A stretch of 64,000 bases of DNA from Halapricum desulfuricans (GTDB lineage: Archaea > Halobacteriota > Halobacteria > Halobacteriales > Haloarculaceae). Shown here in pieces: positions 26,661-27,370 of the stretch. The position numbers and the translations under genes were made by a program. The notes under the pieces are model-generated. The model was not told where the DNA came from. It searched no databases and saw only the letters and a list, made by a program, of their open reading frames with translations. The stretch's first letter is position 1; each line of letters opens with the position of its first letter. Where the stretch lies: NCBI RefSeq assembly GCF_017094505.1, contig NZ_CP064787.1, forward strand, positions 2,046,001-2,110,000, read 5' to 3'.

Positions 26661-26730
26661 TCCGTCTCCCGCAGTGGCCCCCGGCCAGATCTCTCAGTTT
26701 GCGAGAGAGTACCAAATCCATTCAGAATGA

Positions 26731-26737
26731 TTTATTA
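26731..26737 (+). promoter_or_regulatory. TATA box of the candidate ncRNA
   Basis: tttatta in an AT-rich patch lies about 26-30 bases upstream of the first strong hairpin of the candidate RNA (26761). This is the spacing expected for a transcription start near 26758. Confidence 0.55.
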
Positions 26738-26757
26738 CCATAGACACCGTACATTCA

Positions 26758-27133
26758 CATCCCGTTAGAAAACGGGGACACACCGGACGACGCATCTCGG
26801 AGCTCCCGACAGGGACAAAGGGATGCGTTTGGGGCACAACCAAGCGTCCCGTAACAGGGATCCGAGGTCGCGCCCTGAAGGAGAACCGAAGCAGTCCACA
26901 ACTGGTCCGGCCGGCCGGATCAGCGCGAAGGCCAATTACCGGACGCCACGTAAGTGGCATTCGGGAACCCGACACGCTGGCAAACGCTGGTGAAAGCCCA
27001 GATAAAGTCCGCAAGGACAAGGCCGATGGAAACTCGGCTACAGCCGGCACGTGTGTCGGCACGGCCGAACGGACTGTGGAAAACGGCTCCTGTCCGGGTC
27101 CAAACCGTTTCAGCGGGGTTTTCCGCTTTCTTC
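26758..27133 (+). ncRNA. Candidate structured noncoding RNA, identity unknown
   Basis: This region has no plausible protein gene but many mutually compatible helices. A closing helix is 26783-26788 with 27092-27097. Hairpins are 26761-26776 (AGAA loop), 26790-26828 (with an inner tcccgacaggga), 26847-26860, 26903-26922, 26945-26958 (GTAA loop), 27007-27018 (GCAA loop), 27022-27038 and 27043-27060. A long-range helix pairs 26891-26897 with 27071-27077 and encloses the last five hairpins. A TATA box (26731) and a terminator (27112) frame it. The topology recalls RNase P RNA, but I do not find the universal RNase P sequences, nor SRP-RNA helix 8. Boundaries are estimates. Confidence 0.6.
27112..27133 (+). 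terminator. Hairpin plus T-rich tail after the candidate ncRNA
   Basis: AGCGG (27112-27116) pairs with CCGCT (27123-27127) around the loop GGTTTT, followed by TTCTTC. This is a simple intrinsic-type terminator at the expected 3' end of the candidate RNA. Confidence 0.5.
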
Positions 27134-27160
27134 GAGGTCTGAGCGGTTGCCTTTCTTCGA

Positions 27161-27240
27161 TGTCGGAGCAACTGCTCTCCGGTCATGTCTGTCCTGCTCT
27201 CCGGTCATGTCTGTCCTGCTCTCCGGTCATGTCGGAGCAA
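27161..27240. repeat. 22-base tandem repeat flanked by direct repeats
   Basis: Units at 27172-27193 and 27194-27215 are identical, and a third partial unit runs 27216-27233. The block is bounded by gtcggagcaa on both sides (27162-27171 and 27231-27240). Spacing and number are too low for CRISPR, and the units are contiguous without spacers. It lies between the candidate RNA terminator and element B. Confidence 0.85.
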
Positions 27241-27288
27241 TTGCGCCGGTGAAATCCGTCCAGTTCCAGTCATCGAAGACCAGAGTTC

Positions 27289-27370
27289 ATAGTGACCGTT
27301 GTACGTCTGTTCCGGATCGACCGCACGCAGTCGTGCGGTCACACCGGTAAATCGTTACAACGGACACTAT
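27289..27370. repeat. Palindromic intergenic element B
   Basis: Outer arms 27289-27304 and 27354-27370 are inverted repeats (ATAGTG ends). The perfect inner hairpin pairs 27319-27326 (gaccgcac) with 27333-27340. It aligns with the reverse complement of element A and shares gtaacgat and a gcacgac-type core with element C. Its right end is the A of the TGA stop of the GH13 gene. It has no ORF, so it is a MITE-like or conserved regulatory palindrome, possibly acting as a terminator for the glucosidase gene. Confidence 0.75.

Follow-up and report, generated by a model that had tools for sequence, protein, structure and literature searches.

A structured noncoding RNA family of salt-loving archaea, apparently undescribed, with bulge-helix-bulge ends and a genomic link to HARP

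The 64-kb stretch of DNA analysed here (the window, whose positions are used below) holds, at 26661-27369, a region whose neighbours on either side are genes resembling cinA and an alpha-glucosidase. A preliminary description of the sequence had placed a structured noncoding RNA in it, framed by a promoter and a terminator, and this proposal is borne out: the RNA is conserved and covarying, a promoter-like box precedes it at near-constant spacing and Rfam holds no match to it. The plus strand, on which all features given below lie, folds at -175.9 kcal/mol, compared with -138.3 +/- 5.9 kcal/mol for dinucleotide shuffles (z = -6.4; 0 of 100 shuffles reach the value). The TATA box anticipated at 26731 is found as a TATA-like promoter box, TTTATTA, at 26731-26737; such a box recurs upstream of the inner closing helix of the relatives, at a distance of 40-100 nt in 40 of 54 members and mostly of 50-56 nt. 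The proposed terminator corresponds to a T-rich, terminator-like stretch at 27112-27133 (its start being approximate), recognised from sequence. An imperfect tandem repeat, CTCTCCGGTCATGTC(TGTCCTG), lies shortly 3' of it, at 27174-27240. No conserved reading frame that could denote a protein-coding gene was found in the region, where conservation tracks the helices and comes with compensatory changes. The open reading frames that overlap it are mechanical only (45-122 aa, on both strands), and indels in the alignments of the relatives have lengths that are not multiples of three.

What kind of RNA could this be? At gathering scores, Rfam 15 gave no match anywhere in the 64-kb window, and the candidate stretch had none even at E<=10; the 15 loci that hold relatives returned nothing but neighbouring tRNAs and one chance match below the threshold. 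Neither Rfam nor ARAGORN matched the candidate to SRP RNA, rRNA, tRNA, tmRNA, introns, omega RNA or any other Rfam family. The same description had considered a divergent RNase P RNA, given the nested topology and the size, and we now assign this identity next to no probability: the archaeal RNase P model RF00373 finds the RNase P RNA of this genome at another locus (C1:1166533-1166935, 150.7 bits), about 0.9 Mb from the candidate, which has no Rfam match itself. Moreover, RNase P RNA is an essential RNA and would not be missing from most haloarchaea, as the candidate is. There is a connection to RNase P of a different kind, a co-occurrence with the protein-only RNase P HARP, which is developed below. 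The other identity considered, an unknown RNA family, agrees with the conservation, the covariation and the lack of an Rfam match. No earlier description of such a family was found in the open-access literature, subscription papers and preprints lying outside the scope of the search; the RNA thus appears to represent an undescribed large noncoding RNA family of salt-loving archaea, a novelty that is provisional because of this scope.

Relatives were detected by blastn in 23 of 97 related genomes, and the RNA covaries strongly. With a covariance model of the core (R1), built from 17 of these 23 blastn-positive relatives, the RNA is detected in 79 of the 293 genomes of the order, mostly as a single copy, and also in three further genomes that belong to other families of the phylum. 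For a second model (R2; 180 positions, 43 pairs), 28 diverse members were aligned, the variable hairpin region having been removed from several of them beforehand; the 3' strand of P2 is misaligned in the three distant members, which lowered the score of that helix. In this alignment 89.2% of base-pair cells are paired and 33 of the 43 pairs show two-sided changes, counts that lean towards the structure because it was derived by RNAalifold from the same sequences. When the partners are shifted by one to three columns, pairing falls to 33-46% and the covariation score from 0.55 to 0.08-0.14, and 0 of 500 shuffles equal the observed measures. Both long-range helices, P4 and P8, show two-sided changes, which together with the size of the effect leaves little doubt that the structured RNA family is genuine.

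In the window, R2 matches 26829-27084 with 148.6 bits. The core is preceded by a variable 5' hairpin (26789-26829, from single-sequence folds) that differs in length and sequence among members. P2 (26831-26835 / 26872-26876) covaries and encloses P2b (26839-26841 / 26866-26868, the whole element spanning 26839-26868), which in turn surrounds P3 (26847-26850 / 26857-26860, loop GUAACA); covariation is seen in all of these helices. Next comes the most conserved single-stranded block, GAAGGAGAACCG (26877-26888), which includes invariant columns, and then the 5' strand of P4 (26891-26897), pairing with 27071-27077. This long-range helix had been predicted at these positions and is real: 95.9% of the cells of its 7 pairs are paired and 4 of the pairs show two-sided changes among members. 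The P5 hairpin (26902-26923) covaries as well. The 5' strand of P8, GGC at 26930-26932 inside the conserved block AAGGCCAANUA, pairs with 27064-27066, with 98.8% of cells paired and a middle pair that covaries as GC, AU and UA. P6 (26939-26964), with its GNRA loop GUAA, has 10 pairs, 7 of them with two-sided changes, and is followed by P7 (26969-26975 / 27053-27059, a pairing read from the window sequence), in which 4 of 4 modelled pairs covary and which surrounds the T-loop hairpins described below. The core ends in a conserved 3' block (27064-27084, from the alignment and the R2 match) made of the 3' strands of P8 and P4 and of GUGGAAAAC. The hairpins with GTAA and GCAA loops noted earlier are both found, but the GCAA hairpin lies outside the conserved core. 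In the three relatives found in other families of the phylum (L063, L064 and L065, in G322, G331 and G340), an extra hairpin is present between P2 and the GGAGAACC block.

The preliminary description had a closing helix at 26783-26788 / 27092-27097; the helix is real but longer (26783-26789 / 27091-27097), and what was overlooked is that it forms the inner arm of a bulge-helix-bulge, continued by 26770-26779 / 27098-27110. The two termini read AAACGG-GGAC-ACA-CCGGACG (26770-26789) and UGUCCGG-GUCC-AAA-CCGUUU (27091-27110). From the outside inwards, an outer arm h (AAACGG at 26770-26775 with CCGTTT at 27105-27110) is followed by a central 4-bp helix H (GGAC at 26776-26779 with GTCC at 27098-27101), by a 3-nt bulge 3' of each of its strands (ACA at 26780-26782; AAA at 27102-27104) and by the inner closing helix h', or P1. 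This is the arrangement of the archaeal tRNA-splicing endonuclease substrate, a 4-bp helix between two 3-nt bulges on opposite strands (PMC7714728). By the known rule, cuts are predicted between 26781 and 26782 and between 27103 and 27104, which would release a 322-nt RNA (26782-27103) for circularisation.

The geometry was scored across 70 members with the inner helix as anchor: among 3888 tested sets of lengths for the bulges and helices, the 3-4-3 arrangement came out at the top, with 8 of 8 judged pairs in 39 of the 70 members, and on reading the sequences a misplaced automatic anchor is the sole cause of the shortfall in several of the others. A looser shuffle control, in which any position was allowed, is uninformative (46 of 213 shuffles pass its low threshold), so that only the fixed-position test is used here. 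Helix H changes in a compensatory manner (GGAC/GUCC, GAAC/GUUC, GGAG/CUCC, AGAC/GUCU, GGGC/GCCC and AGGC/GCCU), the last variant coming from L063, whose genome belongs to a different family of the phylum. Two of the three loci outside the haloarchaea (L063, L064, L065) retain the bulge-helix-bulge, and one locus (L077, G237:C2:120100-122800) carries the RNA twice in tandem, the copies lying 444 nt apart and each having a bulge-helix-bulge. In a set of diverged variants (L105, L107, L108, L109 and L111) the 5' core is shortened and the bulge-helix-bulge is not clear. Ligation of the predicted ends would create a junction loop, GUCCAAA in the window, whose positions 2, 4 and 6 are U, C and A in 39 of 54 members, a pattern that resembles a T-loop. 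The genome of the window has a gene for EndA. We infer that the termini are a canonical EndA substrate; on this geometry, the RNA looks designed for excision and closure to a circle. Published circRNA-seq of Haloferax volcanii lists seven bulge-helix-bulge circles, and the candidate RNA is not among them (PMC7714728). The genus does carry the RNA gene, in Haloferax larsenii (G269, locus L092), and low expression, the energy filter of that study or a circle that does not accumulate may account for its absence from the list. In Haloferax the RNA locus is flanked by a transporter-like gene and an inositol-monophosphatase-like gene, and a tRNA gene lies upstream of this copy (508-591 of L092).

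A possible partner is suggested by the genes next to the RNA. In 17 loci, the adjoining genes belong to one family, TIGR03875, annotated as 'RNA ligase partner protein', which is HARP, homologous to the RNase P of Aquifex (PMC12153264). The copy in the window genome scores over the TIGR03875 cut-off, and seven solved structures that it matches bear the name RNA-free ribonuclease P. HARP is over the cut-off in 75 of the 79 genomes with the RNA and in 43 of the 214 others (odds ratio 75, p=1.5e-33, the 293 genomes being non-independent); phylogeny was taken into account to genus level only, where HARP is found in 33 of 35 genera with the RNA versus 18 of 52 others (p=8.6e-9). In 24 of 75 genomes, against an expectation of 0.09, no more than 1.5 kb separates the RNA core from the HARP gene. 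The two are arranged divergently in some of these genomes and convergently in others, and the cases come from several families (for example from Halorussus, Haladaptatus, Halorarius, Halogeometricum, Haloprofundus and Halegenticoccus). Could the two merely be co-distributed, through joint transfer or a shared salt niche and with no joint function? Both occur patchily, related genomes share history, and in two thirds of genomes, that of the window included, the RNA lies far from HARP; but adjacency has arisen in several arrangements and in several families, the association holds at genus level and the three genomes with the RNA outside the haloarchaea agree (HARP in 3/3), so that we regard mere co-distribution as quite improbable. 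In G007 and G089, both nearly complete genomes, a diverged RNA occurs without HARP, and both RNAs are among the diverged variants without a clear bulge-helix-bulge.

R1 finds no RNA in 43 HARP genomes, all of them with Rnl3, and 40 of these gave no match when rescanned with R2; a search of 33 other HARP-positive genomes of the phylum likewise returned nothing significant. Weak R2 matches inside Haloarcula HARP genes (L210, 29 bits; L208, 19 bits) were judged to be chance. Where empty sites can be compared, at L117 in the congener G005 and at L125-L130 in relatives from a different genus, they are short and clean, with the same neighbouring genes and with HARP and Rnl3 present in the genomes, which suggests that the RNA is gained or lost as a whole unit. 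The 43 genomes thus seem genuinely to be without it, and HARP does not need the RNA everywhere. No copy was found in phages or IMG/VR by exact 19-mer, and the RNA occurs on plasmid-labelled replicons in Halorussus only.

Rnl3 (TIGR01209) is a circularising RNA ligase and the known companion of HARP (PMC12153264), and in our sample it is always found with HARP (84/84 Rnl3 genomes). The RNA is present in 34 of 34 genomes that have HARP and lack Rnl3, compared with 41 of 84 that have both proteins (p=6e-9); every sampled HARP genome therefore carries Rnl3, the RNA, or both. In the window genome, HARP and Rnl3 sit side by side (C1:1127571-1129397), remote from the RNA gene, while all three are clustered, in differing order, in two genera (L107, G127:C3:576500-580200; L072, G068:C74:6700-9900). 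This distribution could mean that the RNA restrains HARP in the manner of an RNA antitoxin, HARP genomes needing either Rnl3 for repair or the RNA for sequestration, and it would fit that H. volcanii tolerates deletion of HARP without harm (PMC12153264). We think such restraint unlikely given the 41 genomes that have both Rnl3 and the RNA and the adjacency to HARP in only a third of genomes. In addition, HARP has no known toxicity.

The P7 region is enlarged in many members by hairpins whose loop of seven nucleotides reads UGNRANY: 24 of 60 members contain 42 such T-loop hairpins between them, whereas mononucleotide shuffles average 0.025. The window has two, at 26986-27001 (loop UGAAAGC) and 27022-27038 (loop UGGAAAC), assigned on this recurrence. 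HARP recognises the tRNA elbow, the site of the T loop (PMC10941002), making these hairpins plausible HARP contacts, with the caveat that over half of the members lack them. They also raise the possibility that the RNA is a substrate, its precursor or circle being cut by HARP at tRNA-like elements to yield a product that acts elsewhere. HARP, with its recognition of tRNA elbows, is indeed a nuclease (PMC10941002) and the RNA is nearly restricted to HARP genomes; nevertheless, the bulge-helix-bulge already accounts for both ends and the T-loop hairpins are missing in many members, which makes a substrate role improbable in our view.

The reading that we favour, with moderate confidence, is that of a stand-alone gene for an EndA-excised circular RNA that serves as a dedicated partner of HARP. 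The RNA would be transcribed from its own promoter, the TATA-like box seen in 40 of 54 members. Its paired ends would form the bulge-helix-bulge, EndA would cut twice to free the 322-nt RNA, and the tRNA ligase RtcB, or Rnl3 where present, would close it to a circle, two steps that we derive from the geometry. Archaeal pre-rRNAs are likewise excised by EndA and circularised. The circle would then fold into the conserved core of P2/P2b/P3, P4, P8, P5 and P6, from which T-arm-like hairpins would protrude in many species. Finally, co-occurrence and gene adjacency point to binding of the RNA by the dodecameric HARP, for which it could act as cofactor, restraint or scaffold. Going further, haloarchaeal HARP and a dedicated circular RNA might form a ribonucleoprotein in which this RNA, and not tRNA, is the key to the archaeal role of HARP, a proposal that we put forward tentatively, at somewhat less than even chances.

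Many archaea have HARP in addition to an RNA-based RNase P, no effect of deleting HARP is known, and its archaeal function is described as unclear in reviews (PMC10941002, PMC12153264). A structured and apparently circular RNA that is almost confined to HARP genomes, often adjoins HARP and is always present where Rnl3 is missing is a specific, testable missing component, and it therefore offers a concrete route to the archaeal job of HARP. The genera that carry it include Haloferax, which is genetically tractable as a matter of routine. A stand-alone gene, moreover, appears to employ the rRNA and tRNA splicing signal for circle-making. In this respect the RNA is like archaeal circular pre-16S and pre-23S rRNA, in which a bulge-helix-bulge terminal stem also surrounds a large structured RNA and with which it shares the predicted EndA cutting and circularisation, but it is unrelated to them in sequence and structure, it is a gene of its own and its circle is the predicted product, whereas the ribosomal circle is an intermediate. 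Archaeal circular tRNA introns and box C/D sRNAs are excised or ligated circular noncoding RNAs, as is predicted here; the present RNA differs from them in (i), its much larger size; (ii), its conserved multi-helix core; (iii), the absence of tRNA exons and of any Rfam match. With archaeal RNase P RNA (RF00373) it shares a size of about 300-400 nt and nested helices, but it has no match to that family, whose member in this genome lies at another locus. T-loop hairpins are building blocks of other large noncoding RNAs such as raiA, ROOL and cobalamin riboswitches; the present RNA differs from these in architecture and has no Rfam match. A parallel in genomic context is the HARP-Rnl3 pair (Seshadri and Gopalan 2025, PMC12153264), with which the RNA shares the HARP genomes, co-occurrence, adjacency and the theme of circularisation. 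That pair was described as consisting of two proteins, with C/D box RNAs proposed as substrate, whereas the family described here would add a third component, an RNA, present in every sampled genome that has HARP and lacks Rnl3.
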